A stretch of 43,145 nt of DNA, taken from Thermotogae bacterium (GTDB taxonomy: Bacteria; Hydrothermota; Hydrothermia; LBFQ01). Every line of letters starts with the position of its first letter. The first letter of the stretch is position 1. The stretch is from positions 69,944 through 113,088 of the forward strand of contig JAADDJ010000052.1 in the NCBI GenBank assembly GCA_013153965.1, written 5' to 3'. A program made the position numbers and the translations under genes. Under the pieces are notes generated by a model. The model saw only the letters and a program-made list of their open reading frames with translations. It had not been told where the DNA came from and did not search any database. Positions 1,459 to 12,301 of this stretch are shown piece after piece.

Positions 1459-2310
1459 TTAAGATCCCAAGGCTCTCTTTATCTTCGCGAACATGAGCTT
1501 TGCTATACCCACGTTCTGGTGGTCAAACTCCGCCACCAGATAGGAATCACCCACACGCTCACCGTAAAGGGTATGGCCGTTCTTCAGCGCCAGAACGAGC
1601 CTATCCACCACCTTGCACGATGCCAACGATACGAGGAAGACGAAGTCCTCCTTCCAGTCGCCTTTGAGGACCTCAACCTTGCCCTCCTTGAACCGGAAGA
1701 GCCTGACGAGGCCCTCCTCGTGTATTCCCGCCTCGCCGATGACCACCTCGTACTCCTCCTTCGGAGTCTCGGCCGGGACTTCGGCGACCGTCTCCTCCGC
1801 CTCCGCGGGCTCCTCATGAGCCTCCACGGGAGCGGCAACCGGTACCTCCTCGGCCTCGGCCGTTTCGGGCACGCTCTCCTCCATCTCCGCCGTGATCTCC
1901 GCAGGCTCGGCGACCACCTCCTCCACCTCCGCGGGCTCCTCATGGGCCTCCGCGGGAGCGGCGGTCGGCATCTCCTCGGCCTCCTCCATGGGGAATATGG
2001 CCTTCTCCTCCAACTCCCTCTCCAAATTCTCCAAGAGGGTCTCGGTCTCCGTAGGCTCCTCCTTGCTCTCAAGTACCTGCTTCAACTTCTCCTCCAAGGA
2101 TTCCAGCTCCTGAGTGGTCCTCTGGCGCATTCTCTCCATAACCTCAGGCAAGGTCCGCAGTAGGCGATCCGCCGTATCTATGTCAAACGGCGTATTCTCG
2201 TCTATGGACTCTATATCCACCCCGGAGAGCTCCGCCCAGAGACGTATGGCCTCCGGGTCGTTCCCCAGTTCCTCTTTCCCTTGAAGAACTATCATGTAAA
2301 GTTCAGACAT
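1459..2310 (-). CDS. Glu/Ala/Pro-rich repeat protein with conserved-looking ends, function unknown
   Basis: 283 aa in three parts. Residues 1-100 are helical and acidic. Residues about 100-185 are a low-complexity Ala/Glu/Pro/Val linker with two copies of a 42-residue unit (each containing EAHEEPAE). Residues about 190-283 form a compact alpha/beta domain. The end, with YLVAEFDHQNVGIAKL, is loosely like the last strand and helix of Roadblock/LC7 domains, which I offer only as a guess. There is no signal peptide, so it is probably cytoplasmic. It overlaps the V-ATPase C gene by 8 nt and has an exceptionally strong SD inside that gene. The coupling may mean its product is needed with subunit C, or it may simply reflect genome compactness. 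Confidence 0.7.
   Translation of the reverse strand: MSELYMIVLQGKEELGNDPEAIRLWAELSGVDIESIDENTPFDIDTADRLLRTLPEVMERMRQRTTQELESLEEKLKQVLESKEEPTETETLLENLERELEEKAIFPMEEAEEMPTAAPAEAHEEPAEVEEVVAEPAEITAEMEESVPETAEAEEVPVAAPVEAHEEPAEAEETVAEVPAETPKEEYEVVIGEAGIHEEGLVRLFRFKEGKVEVLKGDWKEDFVFLVSLASCKVVDRLVLALKNGHTLYGERVGDSYLVAEFDHQNVGIAKLMFAKIKRALGS
1801..1986. repeat. Imperfect in-frame direct repeat, offset 126 bp
   Basis: A stretch of about 60 bp at 1801-1860 recurs at 1927-1986 with a few substitutions. The offset of 126 bp is exactly 42 codons, so the repeat keeps the reading frame. It encodes the AAPxEAHEEPAE linker units of the 1459-2310 gene. Slippage or unequal recombination could change the linker length without breaking the protein. 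Confidence 0.85.
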
Positions 2311-3289
2311 GGATCACCTCCTTTATTCTCTCAGGTCCAATGCCGAAAGACTTCGCGTAGATTAGGGTACGGAGGTTTATGGCCTCCATCTCCACCCGCC
2401 AGAGATACTCCATGACGGCGAAGAAGCTGACGGGCTCAACGGAGAATCCCCTCTTCACGTCCTCGTAGAACTTCCGCTCAAAGGCGGAGTCAATCTTCTC
2501 CAAGGAGAAGGCTCCCTCAATGGGAACGTATCTTCGCACCAACTCCTCCAGCTCCTCCACGTCCTCCATGGCGAGCACCTGCCTCTTTATCTTGGGGCTT
2601 ATGAATCCCCCATCCAACCAGTAGGATGGTCTCTCCCCCCCGGAGAGGGAGATGTAAGCCATGGAGATATTCTTGGAGTCTATGGTGTAGTTGTAGAACT
2701 CCTTGACGATGTCGTGTATGTCGCGTCCGAGAACGTTGGAGTAGAAGGAGGAGTATATGTGATACTCAAACTTGGCAAGGTCTCCGTTTCGCAGCGAGAG
2801 GATGGCCTCCCGCGTGATGGTGAAGGGCAATCCCTTGAAGGCTATCTTCGCTCTCTCCGCCGCGGAGACGGCGTCCTCCTCCTGTAGCAGCTCCCTGAGC
2901 CTGACCTCGTCCAAGACACCCGCCGGGAATATGCTCCGCTCAACGACGTGGGGCTCCACGTTGTAGAACTTGCCTCGTATCACGGTTATGAAGTTGTACA
3001 GGTCCCACCTGCTCAGATACGCGTCCAGCGACTCCTTATCCTTTCCCTCCTCAAGGAAGGATTCAACTTTGCGCACCTCGTCGGCGAACGCCCTATTGAC
3101 GGCGGATATGTAGAGCTCCAACCCGGACTTCGTCGTCTTGAGATCCGTCAGGTACCTACCGTACCGGGTATCCTTAAGGACGTTCTCGTAGGAGGATAGG
3201 TCCTCCCTGATCAAGGTCTCGTAAATCTCCGGCTTGAGCAGTCGGGCCCGTCTTCCACGTAGCCTCCCATAGACGTACTCCATGCTCAT
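2303..3289 (-). CDS. atpC: V-type ATP synthase/ATPase subunit C (AC39 family)
   Basis: 328 aa, the usual length for the archaeal/bacterial V-type (A-type) ATPase subunit C. This funnel-shaped subunit connects the central rotor stalk to the membrane ring. Family-typical features are the N-terminal YVYGRLRGRRARLL, repeated helical segments, and the C-terminal block VEMEAINLRTLIYAKSFG that ends AC39/NtpC proteins. It starts 1 nt after the guaB stop, and the next gene's SD lies in its 3' end. None of the other V-ATPase subunits (A, B, D, E, F, G, I, K) is in this window. That is unusual, because subunit C is normally embedded in the ATPase operon. An alternative start is the second ATG, two codons in. 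The family assignment is firm; the rotor's coupling ion cannot be inferred here. Confidence 0.9.
   Translation of the reverse strand: MSMEYVYGRLRGRRARLLKPEIYETLIREDLSSYENVLKDTRYGRYLTDLKTTKSGLELYISAVNRAFADEVRKVESFLEEGKDKESLDAYLSRWDLYNFITVIRGKFYNVEPHVVERSIFPAGVLDEVRLRELLQEEDAVSAAERAKIAFKGLPFTITREAILSLRNGDLAKFEYHIYSSFYSNVLGRDIHDIVKEFYNYTIDSKNISMAYISLSGGERPSYWLDGGFISPKIKRQVLAMEDVEELEELVRRYVPIEGAFSLEKIDSAFERKFYEDVKRGFSVEPVSFFAVMEYLWRVEMEAINLRTLIYAKSFGIGPERIKEVIHV
2311..2323 (-). promoter_or_regulatory. Near-perfect extended Shine-Dalgarno of the 1459-2310 gene
   Basis: The minus strand reads AAGGAGGTGATCC immediately before the ATG at 2310. That is complementary to the canonical bacterial 16S 3' tail (GGATCACCTCCTT) over 13 nt. 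It is encoded inside the last codons of the upstream V-ATPase C gene, so that gene's C-terminal residues are constrained by it. Confidence 0.8.
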
Positions 3290-3290
3290 T

Positions 3291-5713
<2,423 letters not shown>

Positions 5714-5725
5714 CGTCGTACCTCC

Positions 5726-6817
5726 TTAACGTAGGACGAACCTAAAGGTTATTCTACCGCTACAACCGTCGGGTACGTTGGAGGAGAATACCCAGCCGCG
5801 CACGGCGTTCAAGGCGGCGTTGTCAAGGGCGGGATAACCGCTGGAGCGAGCGAGATTCAGGCTCTTGATGGTGCCGTTGGAGTTTAGAACGACCTGAACG
5901 ACGACCGTACCCTGCCAACCCTCACGGCGGGCGCGACGAGGATACTTGGGCTTGACCTTGCGCACGACCTTGCCCTTGATGCATCCCTCAATCTGGATAG
6001 CGCCGCCACCCTTAACCTGAACCGGCTGGCTGGGGCCGGCTATCTCCTCGGCCGAGACGGCGGCCTTGGGCACGGCCACATCCACGTTGGATACGGCCTC
6101 GGCGAGGCCACTGCCGCCTCCTCCATCACCCAAGGAGATACCCCCTCCGCCGCCTTCGCCGCCGAGTCCGAGACCTCCACCCATGGAGCCCTCAAATCCG
6201 GAGGATCCGAGGGATACGGCGGGCACGGCCTCTTGAGCGAGTATATCGGAGGTGCTCACCCCCTTGGATGGCAGGGCCACCACCACGTCGGCCGCCTCCG
6301 CGCTCAGGGACTCGTCCATATCGGCTATATCTATCTTGGCGGCGGTCTCAAGGTTCGCCTCAAGGTCAACCTTCTGAACCTGCACCTGCTCCGGGAGCAT
6401 CTGGGTGCTCGCTATCTGCACCTTCACGTTCTGGGGTACATCCACCTTCAGCTTGGGACCTCCGACCTTTATCGTCGGGCTTACGGTCTTGCTCAGCTTG
6501 GCCTTCAGATTTATCTTGTTGGGTTTGCCCGGCTCCTTCTTGTCTCCGGGCTTCTTCTCGTCCTTCTTCTGAAGGTCCTGCTTCTTCTTCTGCAGGAGTT
6601 TCTTCAACTTGGGCGGTATCTTCTTCTTCTTCTTAAGTTTCTCCTCAAGGAGCTGGATCTCCCTAAGGCGGGCCTCCTCAAGGGCCTCCGCTATCTGCTC
6701 CCTCATCGTGTAGGCGAGGATGGCCAACACAGCCACACCGAACCAGAAGAATACAGCCAACCTCTTCGTCGGCTTGTCCTCCTTATCCTCCGGCAGCTTT
6801 ACCCTTATCTTTGCCAT
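5726..6817 (-). CDS. TonB-family energy-transducing protein
   Basis: 363 aa. One N-terminal transmembrane anchor (about residues 19-39, LAVFFWFGVAVLAILAYTM) is followed by a Lys/Glu coiled-coil and a Lys-rich stretch (KKKKKIPPKLKKLLQKKK). A long linker with a Gly-rich tract (about 205-235) follows, then a TonB C-terminal domain (about 280-363: KPKYPRRARREGWQGTVVVQ, ALDNAALNAVRGW). In this family the protein spans the periplasm and passes proton-motive force from ExbB-ExbD to outer-membrane partners. Cys residues flank the C-terminal domain (EGCIKG and DGCSG) and could form a disulfide. The Lys-rich rather than Pro-rich spacer resembles TolA or AgmX/GltJ proteins as much as classical TonB. Its SD (AGGAGG) and place behind the two exbD genes support one operon and one complex. 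Confidence 0.9.
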   Translation of the reverse strand: MAKIRVKLPEDKEDKPTKRLAVFFWFGVAVLAILAYTMREQIAEALEEARLREIQLLEEKLKKKKKIPPKLKKLLQKKKQDLQKKDEKKPGDKKEPGKPNKINLKAKLSKTVSPTIKVGGPKLKVDVPQNVKVQIASTQMLPEQVQVQKVDLEANLETAAKIDIADMDESLSAEAADVVVALPSKGVSTSDILAQEAVPAVSLGSSGFEGSMGGGLGLGGEGGGGGISLGDGGGGSGLAEAVSNVDVAVPKAAVSAEEIAGPSQPVQVKGGGAIQIEGCIKGKVVRKVKPKYPRRARREGWQGTVVVQVVLNSNGTIKSLNLARSSGYPALDNAALNAVRGWVFSSNVPDGCSGRITFRFVLR

Positions 6818-6848: not shown

Positions 6849-7304
6849 CTATCCGGACCCCTTCCTCTTTACCACCGCCAAGGCCACCCTCTTGGCTCCT
6901 CCCTTCTTCACGGCGTCCAGAACCTCCAGAACCTTACCCCACTGGATGGCCTTGTCCCCGCGGATGACCGTCAGCTGTTGGCCCTTGAGTTCGGGGTCGT
7001 TGTTCTCCATCGCGTACTTCTCCTGCAGCTCCTTTATCTTGGCGGTGATGGACTGGAGGTCGGGCATCTCGTAATCCTGCACGTACATCTTACCCTCTTT
7101 GGTAACGGACACGGGTATGCTCTGCTCCAGCTCCACCTCTATGACGTTGGCCTTGGGTATATCCACCTTGATGGACGTGTTCGTGAATAGGGACTGGGCG
7201 TCCATGATCAGCGTCGCCAGAGTCAGTATCATCACCCCCGCCATGGGGAACAGATACTGACCTATATCCGGCGGCTCCTTAGGTTTCGGCTTCTCCCTCG
7301 GCAT
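6849..7304 (-). CDS. Second ExbD/TolR-type protein, lacking the membrane aspartate
   Basis: 151 aa: a short cytoplasmic basic N-terminus, one transmembrane segment (YLFPMAGVMILTLATLIM) and an ExbD-type periplasmic domain (LTVIRGDKAIQWGKVLEVLD, then GGAKRVALAVVKRK). ExbD and TolR normally carry an Asp at the start of this helix that is essential for proton flow (Asp25 in E. coli ExbD). Here that position appears as Gly (PMAGVM). The only nearby acids are Asp13, before the helix, and Asp35, at its far end. It lies 11 nt after the first exbD stop, with a good SD (AAGGAGG). It probably forms a heterodimer with the catalytic-type ExbD encoded just upstream, or plays a structural role. The family assignment rests on topology, length and operon position. 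Confidence 0.8.
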   Translation of the reverse strand: MPREKPKPKEPPDIGQYLFPMAGVMILTLATLIMDAQSLFTNTSIKVDIPKANVIEVELEQSIPVSVTKEGKMYVQDYEMPDLQSITAKIKELQEKYAMENNDPELKGQQLTVIRGDKAIQWGKVLEVLDAVKKGGAKRVALAVVKRKGSG

Positions 7305-7315
7305 GCTTTACCTCC

Positions 7316-7759
7316 TTATGGACACTTGCTCCTCTTGCGCTTCATTATCAGGACGTCGGAGGCTCCCTTCTCCTTGAGCAGGTCTATCATCTGGATCACG
7401 TCCTCGTATATCACGTCGTTGTCGGCGGAGAGTAGGGCCTGCTTCTTTACGCTACGGGCGAGGAGTTTGGGGATTATGTCGGGCAGGCGGTTGGGATCAA
7501 AGGGCTCCTCGTTGAGGAACACCGTACCGTCCGCGCAGATGTGTATATTGACCTTTATGTCGCTCTTCTTCTTCTTGGGAGTGACGACGTTGCGCCTCTT
7601 GGTGGCGAGGGAGCGGGAGATGAATATACCGGACTCCACGATGAAGGGGATGGTTAGCATGAACATTATCAGGAGCGAGGTGGTCATGTCGGAGAAGGGC
7701 CCCAAGTTGGGCCTTGGGGCCTCTCTCTTCTCTACCTTCTTTTTCCTTCTCTTAGGCAT
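7316..7759 (-). CDS. exbD: ExbD/TolR-type biopolymer transport protein (with membrane Asp)
   Basis: 147 aa from the ATG at 7759; the track starts one codon earlier at a GTG. A basic cytoplasmic N-terminus (PKRRKKKVEKR) precedes a single transmembrane helix that begins GPFSDMTTSLLIMFML, with Asp24 at the position of the essential proton-relay Asp of ExbD/TolR. The periplasmic domain has the family-typical KQALLSADNDVIYEDVIQMI block. It ends in Cys-Pro. The start overlaps the exbB stop as TGATG, so translation is coupled to exbB and subunit stoichiometry is probably set this way. Together with ExbB it should form the inner-membrane proton-driven motor. Confidence 0.92.
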   Translation of the reverse strand: MPKRRKKKVEKREAPRPNLGPFSDMTTSLLIMFMLTIPFIVESGIFISRSLATKRRNVVTPKKKKSDIKVNIHICADGTVFLNEEPFDPNRLPDIIPKLLARSVKKQALLSADNDVIYEDVIQMIDLLKEKGASDVLIMKRKRSKCP

Positions 7760-8463
7760 CACTCGGCGTGCTGCAATTGGCTGATCATTATCAGCAGACG
7801 GCGCGCGGCTACGTCGGTGGTGGCGAGGATACGCTCGGCGGTGTTGGTGACGTAGTTATAGACGGGGATGTTCATCATGGCTATGATCAGTCCCCACCAG
7901 GTGGTAACGAGAGCCGTGGAGATACCCTTACCCACGACCTCGGCTCCACCGGATCCCGTAACGGCTATCTGGTTGAACGCGTCAATCAGACCGTCAACGG
8001 TTCCGAAGAGACCCAGCAGCGGGGCTATGGCGATTATGGATCCCATGGCCGTGGTGAATCGCAGGAGCTTGAACCTCTCAAACGTCATAACCGAGTCCAT
8101 CATGTCGTATATCTGATCCAGCGGGAGGTGTATGTTTTCAAGACCGGCCTTGAGGGTGTTGTGAAGGGGATGGTCCGTACGGCTGAGGTACGCGATGGCG
8201 CCGTCTATGTCGCCGTTCTCCAGATAGGCCTGTATGTCCGCCAAGACCTTGTTGTGGTTGAACTTGGACTTCTTCCAGATGTAGTAGAGCCTCTCGGCGA
8301 TGAGGACGATGGAGATGAAGAAGGTGATGAGGAGCAGGACCATGGTGAGGTTGTCAAAGAAGCCCTTGAAGGTGACTACGCCGTCAACAACGGCGTAGAG
8401 CCTGAACATGTTCAGGATGTTGAATCCCTCCTGAACCGCCGGCAGTGCCATTAGCATTTCCAT
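7759..8463 (-). CDS. ExbB/TolQ/MotA-family proton channel protein
   Basis: 234 aa with three transmembrane segments: about 40-60 (LTMVLLLITFFISIVLIAE), about 140-160 (IIAIAPLLGLFGTVDGLIDAF) and about 180-205. The GLFGTVDGLIDAF block is the diagnostic MotA/TolQ/ExbB signature, and the following STALVTTWWGLIIAM holds the conserved Thr. It forms the pentameric stator ring around an ExbD/TolR pair. A strong SD (AAGGAGG) lies 5 nt before the ATG. It is followed by two exbD genes, a tonB-family gene and an OmpA-like gene, so tolQ and exbB are equally plausible names. Confidence 0.95.
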   Translation of the reverse strand: MEMLMALPAVQEGFNILNMFRLYAVVDGVVTFKGFFDNLTMVLLLITFFISIVLIAERLYYIWKKSKFNHNKVLADIQAYLENGDIDGAIAYLSRTDHPLHNTLKAGLENIHLPLDQIYDMMDSVMTFERFKLLRFTTAMGSIIAIAPLLGLFGTVDGLIDAFNQIAVTGSGGAEVVGKGISTALVTTWWGLIIAMMNIPVYNYVTNTAERILATTDVAARRLLIMISQLQHAE

Positions 8464-8478
8464 AACTTTCCTCCTTTT

Positions 8479-11043
8479 TTACTGCGGTAAGCTCTTCAAA
8501 AGATCCTTCATCTGCTGCGCCTCGGTCGCCCTACCCTGCTGCTCGTAGAGATCAGCCGCCTGCCGCAGGGCGTTGGCCGCATTCCGCACATCTCCGAGCT
8601 CTATGTAGGCCGCGCCCATTATCCGGTAGGCGTCGGGCGTCTTCTGGCTGTTGGGGAAGCGCTTTACGAACTCCTTCGCCGTCTCTATAGCCTGCGGGTA
8701 CTCCTTGACCTGCAGGTAGGCGGAGGCGAGGTAGAACATGACGTCCTCTATGTGCTGCCCGTCGGGGAAGAAGTCCTTGTACTTCTTGAAGGCGTCTATG
8801 GCCTCGCGAGCCTTCTTGTTCTTCAGGTAGAGGGATCCCGCGTAGAAGAGGGCCTCCTCAGCCTTGCTGCTCTGCGGGAAGGTATTACCCAGCTGGAAGA
8901 AGATGTCGGCAGCCTTCAGCTCGTCCCCAGCCTGCATCGCGTCCGCGGCGGCCTTGTAGAGAGCCAGAGCGGTCACCTCGCTCGTCGGCAGGTCCTCCAT
9001 CATCTCGTTTATACGCTCGGGCTCCTCCTTCACGATGTTGAAATAGACACGCTCCAGTCCCTTCTTGGCGTCCTCCGCCACATCGCTGTCAGGGAACTGG
9101 GACAGGATGGTCTTGTACTCCTGCTTGGCCTCGTCCCAAGCCTGCTTACCCTCGTAGCTCTGGGCTATCCAGAGGTGGGCCTGAGGGACGCCCTCGTGGT
9201 CCGGGCAGTGCTCAAGGAACCACCTGAGACGGGCGATGGCGTTATCCCACTCTCCAGCCAGACGGTAGATGTCGCCGGAGCCGAAGGCGGCATCGCAAGC
9301 CTTGGGCTGATCCGGATACTTCTGCATGGTGAGATCCCAGTTGCGAACGGCATCCCCGTAGGACTGAAGGGCCTTGGCGGCGTATCCGGAGTAGTAGAGA
9401 GCCTCGGAGGCGACCTCCGAGCGCTCGGGGGCGAAGATGTATATTCCGTAGAACTTGGCGAAAGCCTCCTGATACTGACCGAGGTTGAAGAGGACCACAC
9501 CCAGACCGAGGTGGGTGGCTATCACGATGGAGGTGTCGGTGGATTGGCCGAGGATGGACTCAAGGTAGGCCTTGGCATCCTGCAGCCTGTCCTGATGTAT
9601 ATACACCCAACCGAGCCCCAGACGGGATAGGACGATTATGTCCCTGTGGAGACCGGCGCGCAGGTTCATGTTGTACAACTTCTCCGCGTTGGCGTAATCT
9701 CCCTTGTAGTAGTGGGCTTCGGCCAGGGCATGGACGAACCAAGAGTTCCACAGCGTGAAGGCCGTATCCTTGGAAACCTCCTCGTTGTAGAGGTTGCCTC
9801 GGGCCATCGCGGCGTCAAAGTCGCGCTGGTTTATCAGGGCGAAGACCATCAGGGCCATGGCGGGACGGCGGAAGAAGGACTTCTCGTAGTTCTCAATCAG
9901 GAACTGGTACTGCTCCATGGCGTCGCGGTACTTCTTGAGCAGATAATGTATGGAGCCCGTCAGGTACTCGCTTATACCCTTCTCCTCGTCCCCGAGGGGG
10001 AAGGATGAGAGCTGGTTGGCCAGCAGGTAAGCGTTGGACGTGTCTCCCTTGTAGTAGTAAGCCTCGGCCATACGGAGGAAGGATATGAAGGTGACGATGT
10101 TGTCGTTGGCGCGGGCACGGGCTATCTGGTAGTAGCGCAGGGCCTCATCGTAGTTCTTCAGGGCCATCTGGATGTTGCCCACGAAGTAGGCGGCCAGACC
10201 GGCCAGCTCAAAGTTGCGCTTCTTCGTAAGCAGCGTCAGCTTCTCAAGGGCCTTGGGCAGGAGGGTGGTATCCTGCTTGCCTCCCTCACCTAAGGCCATC
10301 CTGTAGAGGGCTATACCCCAGTAATACTGGACGTAGTCGGAGAGCTTGTGCCCGTGGAATCGCTCGGTGAATACCTTCGCCAGCTCGGATGTGGCCTTGT
10401 AGTCGCCGTACATGAAGTTGGCCTCTACCATTCCGTAGTATATGAGAGCCTCCTGCGGGGTGCCGGAGTACTTCTCCAGAAGCTCCTTGTATATGGCCAC
10501 GGCGTCCAGAGGTCTCTTGAGGATGGACAGGGCTCGGGCGTAGTAGAACTTAGCCTCAACCACGTCGTCCTTGGCCTGCGCCAGCTTCTCGGACGCCTCC
10601 AAGAATTTGCCCTCACGGTATGCTATGACCCCGTCCAAGAACTTCGTACGGGAGGAGTTCTTGTAGTAGGGGTACTTCTGGAGCTCCAGAAGTTTCTGAC
10701 GCGCCAAGGATATGTCGCCCTTTATGGCGTAGGCCAAGGCGACCTCGTATGCTATCTCCTGCTCCAAATAGGTGCCCTTTACGTCCTTCTCCTTGGCAAG
10801 CTTCTCCCACTCGCGGATGGCCTTATCAAACTTCCCCTGATTGTACAGGGCTTCGGCTATCCTGTACCTGACCTCCTTACCGAATCCGAACTTGTACGCA
10901 GGGCGCAGGATCTTGCGGTATATCCGCTCCGCCTTCCTGTAGTCCCCCTTGCGGAAGAGCGCCTCGGCATCCTTGTGCGCCCTGTAAAAGTCCTTGTAGG
11001 TGAAACCACCTCCAAAGAGTCCTGCTACTAAGAGCGTTGTCAT
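8479..11043 (-). CDS. Large TPR-repeat protein, probably periplasmic
   Basis: 854 aa made almost entirely of tetratricopeptide repeats. Examples are AEALFRKGDYRKAERIYRKI near the N-terminus, AEAHYYKGDYANAEKLYNM near the middle, and IAQSYEGKQAWDEAKQEYKT and IMGAAYIELGDVRNAANALR near the end. The later repeats resemble the BamD/YbgF (CpoB) type, which handle outer-membrane assembly or coordinate Tol-Pal with cell-wall synthesis. The N-terminus is just MTTLLVAG before the repeats begin, so any export signal is extremely short; an in-frame TAA 9 codons upstream with no start codon between prevents extension. A GGGAGG SD sits 9 nt before the ATG. It is encoded 2 nt after the PorV-like gene and 15 nt before exbB, suggesting a scaffold for this envelope machine. 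Confidence 0.85.
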   Translation of the reverse strand: MTTLLVAGLFGGGFTYKDFYRAHKDAEALFRKGDYRKAERIYRKILRPAYKFGFGKEVRYRIAEALYNQGKFDKAIREWEKLAKEKDVKGTYLEQEIAYEVALAYAIKGDISLARQKLLELQKYPYYKNSSRTKFLDGVIAYREGKFLEASEKLAQAKDDVVEAKFYYARALSILKRPLDAVAIYKELLEKYSGTPQEALIYYGMVEANFMYGDYKATSELAKVFTERFHGHKLSDYVQYYWGIALYRMALGEGGKQDTTLLPKALEKLTLLTKKRNFELAGLAAYFVGNIQMALKNYDEALRYYQIARARANDNIVTFISFLRMAEAYYYKGDTSNAYLLANQLSSFPLGDEEKGISEYLTGSIHYLLKKYRDAMEQYQFLIENYEKSFFRRPAMALMVFALINQRDFDAAMARGNLYNEEVSKDTAFTLWNSWFVHALAEAHYYKGDYANAEKLYNMNLRAGLHRDIIVLSRLGLGWVYIHQDRLQDAKAYLESILGQSTDTSIVIATHLGLGVVLFNLGQYQEAFAKFYGIYIFAPERSEVASEALYYSGYAAKALQSYGDAVRNWDLTMQKYPDQPKACDAAFGSGDIYRLAGEWDNAIARLRWFLEHCPDHEGVPQAHLWIAQSYEGKQAWDEAKQEYKTILSQFPDSDVAEDAKKGLERVYFNIVKEEPERINEMMEDLPTSEVTALALYKAAADAMQAGDELKAADIFFQLGNTFPQSSKAEEALFYAGSLYLKNKKAREAIDAFKKYKDFFPDGQHIEDVMFYLASAYLQVKEYPQAIETAKEFVKRFPNSQKTPDAYRIMGAAYIELGDVRNAANALRQAADLYEQQGRATEAQQMKDLLKSLPQ

Positions 11044-11044
11044 C

Positions 11045-12301
11045 TTACCATACCTCCCTTCTCTTTACGGTTACCAGATATCCTCCTCGCTCGTACTCCT
11101 CGCCGCTTATATCCACGACCTTGTAGTAGTAGTAGTAGTTCCCGGGCGGCACGATGCGACCCGAGTCGTCCCTACCGTCCCACTCTATGCGGACCGGAGG
11201 CTCGCCCTCACCGTAGAAGGTGCGAACCACCTCACCGCTCTGCTTCTTTATGACCAGCTCCCACTCCTCAACCTCCTGACGGGGGAAGGTGTGCAGGTAG
11301 AGGAAGGTTATGTTGCTCTCGCCCTCGGCGGGGGATATGAGCTTGGGATCCGAAGAGACCCACACCCTGTAGCCGCCGAACTTGATGGTGGTGGATATCT
11401 GCATGTAATCGTTGAAGGCTCCGTTGGACGCGTAGTTGAACGTGTAGTTCCCGTCAAGGCGGAAGATGATGTCCCTTATCGTAAATTCAAAGCTCCCTCC
11501 GCCCGTCACCTCCTCGTTGTTTATCCCTCCACGTACGTACAGGAAGGATAGGAGACGCGCCTCGCCTCCACCGTAGAACTTGAAACCGTTGTAGTAGGTT
11601 GAATACGCGGCATCTACGACTATCTTCACCCAGCTGAAGGGCCTGAGACCGAGGCCGAACCTCCAGACCTGCGGATAGGAGACCTCGCTCTCGTAGAAGG
11701 TATATTTAGGCGGTATGAAGTGCTGACCGACCAGACCGAAGGAGAAGTAGCGGTTGGGCCTGAACATCATCCCTATGTTCAAGCCGGCGCTGGCGGGTGA
11801 GGACTGATAGACCCGGTGATATACGAACTCCAAGGATGCACCTATGGAGATGGAGCGGGAGAAGGACTTGGAGTAGGCCAGAAGCCCGGCGTTATAGGGC
11901 GGTGAGTCGTCGGTTCCGGGGAATATGGCGTACGCTTGGACCGAATCCAAGCACACGGGCCCGTCCCAGTTGGAGCATATGAGCGAATCCACGAATCGGG
12001 CCGTCGCCGGAGACGAGAGCTGCATCACTGCTATTCCGAAGCTTCCAAAGGTGGATGTGGGGAAGGTGAATGCCCCGTAGTAGAACTGGAATCCGGTAAC
12101 GGGCAGCTGGAAGTATCCCCCGGAGAAATTCACCCTCTGGAGGAAGGCCAAGGCTCCGGGGTTGAAATACACCGCCTCCGCGTCGTCCGATAGGCCGGTG
12201 AAAGCCCTACCGAAACCGTAGGGCCGGGCACCGATGGCGTAGGAGAATATGTACCCCGGTATCCCACCGGTACCCATCTGTGCAAAGAGTATCAGCGTCA
12301 T
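11045..12301 (-). CDS. PorV-like outer-membrane beta-barrel with C-terminal FlgD-Ig domain
   Basis: 418 aa. Residues about 15-315 match the PorV/PorQ/UPF0164-type barrel. The family opening appears as YAIGARPYGFGRAFTGLSDD followed by AEAVYFNPGALAF, and amphipathic aromatic beta strands follow. Residues about 325-418 form a FlgD-type Ig module (ELVIKKQSGEVVRTF, IEWDGRDDSGRIVPPGNYYY). PorV proteins act in type IX secretion and in related outer-membrane roles. No other T9SS gene is seen here, so secretion is only a possibility. The leader is just MTLILFAQ before mature-type sequence. A TAA (the stop of the upstream gene) lies in frame three codons before the ATG, so no longer signal peptide can exist. 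The SD is GAGGTAAGG. Confidence 0.85.
   Translation of the reverse strand: MTLILFAQMGTGGIPGYIFSYAIGARPYGFGRAFTGLSDDAEAVYFNPGALAFLQRVNFSGGYFQLPVTGFQFYYGAFTFPTSTFGSFGIAVMQLSSPATARFVDSLICSNWDGPVCLDSVQAYAIFPGTDDSPPYNAGLLAYSKSFSRSISIGASLEFVYHRVYQSSPASAGLNIGMMFRPNRYFSFGLVGQHFIPPKYTFYESEVSYPQVWRFGLGLRPFSWVKIVVDAAYSTYYNGFKFYGGGEARLLSFLYVRGGINNEEVTGGGSFEFTIRDIIFRLDGNYTFNYASNGAFNDYMQISTTIKFGGYRVWVSSDPKLISPAEGESNITFLYLHTFPRQEVEEWELVIKKQSGEVVRTFYGEGEPPVRIEWDGRDDSGRIVPPGNYYYYYKVVDISGEEYERGGYLVTVKRREVW

Follow-up and report, generated by a model that had tools for sequence, protein, structure and literature searches.

How many proton carriers does a rotary motor of the ExbBD type need on its plug? Current models for rotation in MotAB, ExbBD and TolQR assume that the central dimer bears a pair of aspartates, which trade protonation states with each other (PMC12905483, PMC12215075, PMC9389320). 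The locus described here raises the question directly; candidate division WOR-3, from which it comes, appears to use only one. A motor with one aspartate would let one ask, in a natural system, whether two sites must alternate, and it predicts a different count of protons per turn. It also bears on whether paired plug genes, such as aglQ and aglS, form heterodimers. Further, the two plug helices would be distinguishable, so that structural studies would have a plug with asymmetry built in.

The stretch of DNA that was analysed (the window) covers 43,145 nucleotides of contig JAADDJ010000052.1 (assembly GCA_013153965.1, positions 69,944-113,088), and coordinates given below are positions within it. 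The host genome belongs to the phylum known as candidate division WOR-3, and its relatives are filed variously as WOR-3, Candidatus Caldipriscus and Hydrothermota; one near relative stands under a Thermotogota label. The operon is set out in Table 1.

Table 1. The motor operon of the window and the two codons at its relay position.
Feature	Position	Strand	Evidence or remark
PorV/PorQ-family outer-membrane-like protein, FlgD-type Ig domain	11045..12301	-	NCBIfam PorV_fam 38.4 bits (below cut-off 90); Pfam FlgD_ig 30.8 bits
TPR protein, YbgF/BamD-like repeats	8479..11043	-	Upstream gene of conserved set
ExbB/TolQ-type channel subunit	7759..8463	-	Pfam MotA_ExbB 89.9 bits
ExbD1, Asp-bearing ExbD paralogue	7316..7762	-	Pfam PF02472 63.9 bits
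Asp25 codon of ExbD1 (proton-relay aspartate)	7688..7690	-	Sequence and alignment
ExbD2, Asp-less ExbD/TolR paralogue, 151 aa	6849..7304	-	Pfam PF02472 56.8 bits
Gly23 codon of ExbD2, column of relay Asp (ExbD Asp25)	7236..7238	-	Profile and orthologue alignments
TonB/TolA-type force transducer, C-terminal TonB domain	5726..6817	-	Pfam TonB_C 73.7 bits
Exported protein, FlgD-type Ig domain, weak OmpA-like C-terminus (domains from orthologues)	4763..5713	-	Last gene of conserved set

The exbB and exbD1 genes overlap by four bases, and a ribosome-binding site, aggaggtaaagcATG, precedes exbD2. The domains assigned to the last gene are seen in its orthologues only (FlgD_ig, with a weak OmpA match in one of them); the window's own protein has no Pfam match. 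No TolB was found among the operon proteins scanned, and a PHROGs search gave no match. Downstream come genes for IMP dehydrogenase and, directly after it at 2303-3289, the C/AC39 subunit of a V/A-type ATP synthase. The host genome has two ExbD pairs in all. The other, on contig C10, belongs to a conventional ExbB-ExbD-ExbD-TonB set in which both ExbDs have the aspartate (SMADIAFLL and SMSDIAFLL).

ExbD2 has the profile score, the single N-terminal transmembrane helix and the periplasmic fold that mark ExbD and TolR; the relay aspartate is absent. Both paralogues exceed the PF02472 cut-off of 25.4 bits. An AF2 monomer model (mean pLDDT 76) gives a transmembrane helix at residues 14-39 and an alpha/beta periplasmic domain, and its best Foldseek matches are ExbD and TolR (top: 8pek, 8p9r, 8vgd, 5by4). 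The membrane helix contains ...YLFPMAGVMILTL..., and a profile built from 42 orthologues lays its "pmAgV" on the "PFIDV" of solved ExbD (7ajq, 6tyi) and the "PLLDV" of TolR (9ddm). This register places Gly23 at the position of the essential Asp25. The single ExbD2 sequence gives an identical register with phmmer, at a weak score. In ExbD1 the corresponding stretch is "GPFSDMTTSLL", which holds Asp25. The starting point of an earlier note on this DNA, that the upstream ExbD keeps its aspartate in place and the second has glycine there, is thus borne out. The alignment across related genomes that the note had proposed as a check has also been run. The loss proves to be conserved across the phylum, and the two aspartates of ExbD2 that might have served as substitute relays lie off the relay column: Asp13 sits ten residues upstream of it, and Asp35, also misplaced, is Asn in sister genomes.

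Strong purifying selection acts on ExbD2. Against congeners and a sister genus its dN/dS is 0.03-0.16, comparable to ExbD1 and ExbB, these values being rough because several dS are near saturation. They rule out a pseudogene. An assembly or sequencing error behind the missing aspartate is likewise ruled out, as the same states recur in many independent genomes, 18 public WGS loci included.

How general is the asymmetry? Orthologues of ExbD2 were sought in 147 genomes of the WOR-3 phylum. The gene is kept in 15 WOR-3 families and in many of them it retains its place in the operon, TPR-ExbB-ExbD1-ExbD2-TonB-OmpA-like. In the first 30 orthologous operons, ExbD1 has the relay aspartate in 30 of 30 and ExbD2 in 0 of 30, its residue there being Gly (19), Cys (7), Asn (2) or Ser (2). 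So clean a split, with ExbD2 under strong purifying selection, is not due to chance. A total of 90 tandem-pair loci were then available for the wider count: the aspartate is in ExbD1 only at 71, in ExbD2 only at 13, in both at 6 and in neither at 0. Thus exactly one aspartate is encoded per pair at 84 of the 90. The census was seeded with an Asp-less query, and the 71:13 ratio therefore over-represents the state in which ExbD2 lacks Asp; the zero for pairs lacking both is less affected, since such a locus would be detectable by the same searches. Every one of the 84 replacements at the relay site is small and neutral (26 Gly, 25 Cys, 14 Ala, 14 Asn, 5 Ser), and never acidic or basic.

ExbDs outside tandem pairs have the aspartate in 119 of 120 cases over all loci read. 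For the sole exception, L053, an ExbB and an Asp-bearing ExbD1 are encoded on a different contig of its genome, and no lone Asp-less ExbD was found in a genome that lacks an Asp-bearing partner. In genome G064 the operon is split (L053/L271 and L275), with the Asp-less exbD2 and tonB on one contig and exbB and the Asp-bearing exbD1 on another. Asymmetry is not obligatory for this type of operon, as both aspartates are kept at six loci; at three of the six (L094, L107, L114) each ExbD has an ExbB of its own.

The 13 loci where only ExbD2 has the aspartate deserve separate attention. They come from further families, and there the relay residue of ExbD1 is Asn or Ser; for example, one first ExbD reads ITPMINVALLL, with Asn, and the second ExbD, with Asp, reads ITPLADVSFTIL. 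The earlier note had named homologues whose second copy retains Asp as evidence against its proposal. Such homologues do exist at these 13 loci, yet in each the first copy has lost its own aspartate, which strengthens the case for a pair made of a catalytic and a non-catalytic chain. At seven loci (L052, L057, L062, L073, L080, L143, L144) ExbD1 moreover forms the C-terminal part of a fusion protein with an extra ExbB, a single chain of 358-368 aa that matches both PF01618 and PF02472. The ExbD part of the fusion is always Asp-less, with Asn or Ser at the relay position, and a plain ExbB and an Asp-bearing ExbD2 adjoin. With the fusion, a single dedicated member of the ring would bear the neutral plug chain. 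Five fused plug chains would be too many for a pore that takes two helices, and this would explain the companion plain ExbB.

ExbD1 and ExbD2 are old paralogues. In a tree made without the relay column they form the two sides of one branch with support 100/100, which means that the aspartate was lost separately in each. A single Asp-less family that swapped gene position was considered and rejected; it costs 29 log units (p-AU 0.024) and appears in 0% of bootstrap trees. On a wider tree the state of the site changes at least four times. Examples of this operon from outside WOR-3 retain both aspartates (L106, L108, L158), which suggests an ancestor with two. The asymmetry itself is also found in two other phyla. 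The small phylum of G354 contributes four genomes with tandem pairs of the type Asp/Ser, Asp/Asn or Asp/Ala, up to three operons per genome; the phylum of G262 contributes an Asp/Asn pair in two genomes out of three. In the other phyla surveyed the ExbD aspartate is present in 65 of 66 (G262 being the exception) and in 30 of 30.

These observations concern the plug. In the channel, both ExbB pore threonines (Thr148 and Thr181 in E. coli ExbB; PMC12215075) are conserved in 92 of 92 sequences, as is usual for the channel of a 5:2 motor. Side changes are seen in the ExbBs of the window's own order, at the window, L005-L012, L014, L015 and L019. With the E. coli ExbB core as alignment anchor, the conserved third-helix Glu is lost (IAEAL becomes ISTAL, ISTSL or ISSSL), with Thr in its place in the window's own ExbB, and a new Asp stands beside the first pore threonine (GTVDG). 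This extra Asp is found in 11 of 76 ExbBs of tandem loci, in the window's order only.

The operon encodes a motor that would work like ExbBD and TolQR and belongs to the same sequence family, with one subunit that fails the catalytic hallmark. We propose that exbB, exbD1 and exbD2 probably specify a single ion-driven motor of the inner membrane, an ExbB5:ExbD1:ExbD2 assembly whose heterodimeric plug would join one proton carrier to a permanently neutral partner. Here, the pore of the ExbB pentamer would hold one ExbD1 helix and one ExbD2 helix, and Asp25 of ExbD1 would be the sole proton carrier on the plug. The small neutral residue of ExbD2 would mimic a permanently protonated site, and ExbD2 would also supply a periplasmic domain. 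Small, neutral replacements are what one would predict for a second site that has to act as a protonated aspartate. The geometry of a pentamer and its plug repeats every 72 degrees, so that one proton might be used for each 72-degree step, that is, for each ExbB subunit. With steps of that size, a turn would consume about 5 H+, versus the roughly 10 assumed for symmetric plugs. Force would then pass from the TonB-like protein of the operon to a protein on the outer-membrane side; the direction and the physiological output of the motor are presumptive.

If the pair does form one plug, that plug would depart from the usual 5:2 motor, which has an aspartate on each of its two plug chains. Current rotary models use two (PMC12905483), and a one-aspartate plug may therefore work otherwise than proposed. 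As far as sequence comparison reaches, linkage in the operon and reciprocal loss show that the two chains are functionally complementary, not that they touch. The earlier note had read the pair as a catalytic and a non-catalytic subunit in a heterodimer with a single proton path. The first part fits the comparative data, in which the loss is conserved, at least one aspartate remains per pair and either paralogue may be the loser; the heterodimer and the single path we infer. More broadly, and a shade less confidently, we favour on balance a class of motors with a single carrier on a heterodimeric plug. Such a class would have evolved at least twice from a two-aspartate ancestor by reciprocal loss, with the fusion of the neutral chain to an extra ring subunit as a derived form that would fix the composition of the ring.

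Might the two genes instead serve two homodimeric complexes that share ExbB, an active ExbB5-ExbD1(2) and an ExbB5-ExbD2(2) that is closed, non-conducting or regulatory? ExbD, TolR and MotB are known as homodimers, both paralogues have a full ExbD periplasmic domain, and the three loci with an ExbB for each ExbD make separate motors possible in principle. However, this reading leaves unexplained why either paralogue, though never both together, can have lost the aspartate, why in most loci one ExbB gene is followed by the two ExbD genes side by side, and why the replacement residue is constantly neutral. The absence of a lone Asp-less ExbD from genomes without an Asp-bearing partner also speaks against it, and we consider it unlikely, if still worth real weight. 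A different reading would move the second proton site to ExbB and spare the plug its second aspartate. Precedent exists in the Glu49 of GldL (PMC8986121), and the window's order has indeed gained the GTVDG aspartate and lost the Glu of the next helix. But that gain is confined to one order, whereas the loss in ExbD is phylum-wide, and the remaining ExbD aspartate is never lost alongside; relocation is therefore quite improbable.

ExbD2 might also work outside the pore altogether, as a periplasmic adaptor for TonB or peptidoglycan whose helix is a passive anchor or lies elsewhere in the membrane. Such a role would suit the Foldseek matches, among the top of which are ExbD periplasmic domains bound to TonB or a D-box peptide (8p9r, 8vgd), and current models in which TolA or TonB binds the TolR or ExbD dimer (PMC12905483). 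Yet the helix retains the pore pattern P-M-x-x-V, and in the reciprocal lineages ExbD2 has the sole aspartate and must enter the pore there. This makes a pure adaptor very improbable. Least credible of all is a decaying duplicate that lost its aspartate by drift. Decay does often begin when a catalytic residue is lost, but the dN/dS values, which resemble those of ExbD1 and ExbB, contradict drift, and neither retention across 15 families nor reciprocal loss followed by conserved small residues is the mark of decay. The single-carrier heterodimer remains the preferred reading.

How does the proposed heterodimer compare with known motors? Like the E. coli systems ExbB-ExbD-TonB and TolQ-TolR-TolA, the operon combines a channel with pore threonines, ExbD/TolR plugs and a TonB/TolA-type transducer, and its TPR and OmpA-like neighbours are reminiscent of Tol-Pal. 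The E. coli plug is, however, a homodimer with two aspartates (PMC12215075, PMC12905483), whereas here diverged paralogues have one between them. As regards two plug genes, the closest parallel is AglR-AglQ-AglS of Myxococcus xanthus, which also has one MotA-type channel gene, two plug genes and TonB-like partners. AglQ and AglS both have the aspartate, and whether they form hetero- or homodimers was left open (PMC9389320); the window pair differs in that one plug is Asp-less. GldLM/PorLM, the motor of type 9 secretion, is a 5:2 motor that does not rely on a plug aspartate, its essential carboxylate being GldL E49 in the ring (PMC8986121); GldM is a homodimer without conclusive sequence homology to other motors (PMC9389320). 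In PVC bacteria a TPR gene and a tolQ-like gene likewise stand in a row with two plug-type genes that differ from each other, and the paired TPH-vWA helices are described as Asp-bearing, with no loss from one partner described in the excerpt of that source (PMC12204202). The earlier note's statement that known plug chains are always identical was too strong: AglQ and AglS differ (PMC9389320), and heterologous tolR-like pairs have been noted as well (PMC12204202). No published report of an Asp-less ExbD was found in the open-access literature searched, and the open-licence literature searched gave no direct precedent for dimers of ExbD or MotB that combine a wild-type and a mutant chain.

The transducer, finally, keeps the S-x3-H motor-binding motif in most of these operons, which fits a working force-transducing motor. 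Several variants were seen. The window's family has lost the motor-binding His of the motif from its TonB-like protein, as have L017 and L019. One congener (G041) has the N-terminal part of the TonB-like protein a second time, as a short copy between exbD2 and tonB (L010:1219-1491), and two TonB matches each are present at L119 and L121.
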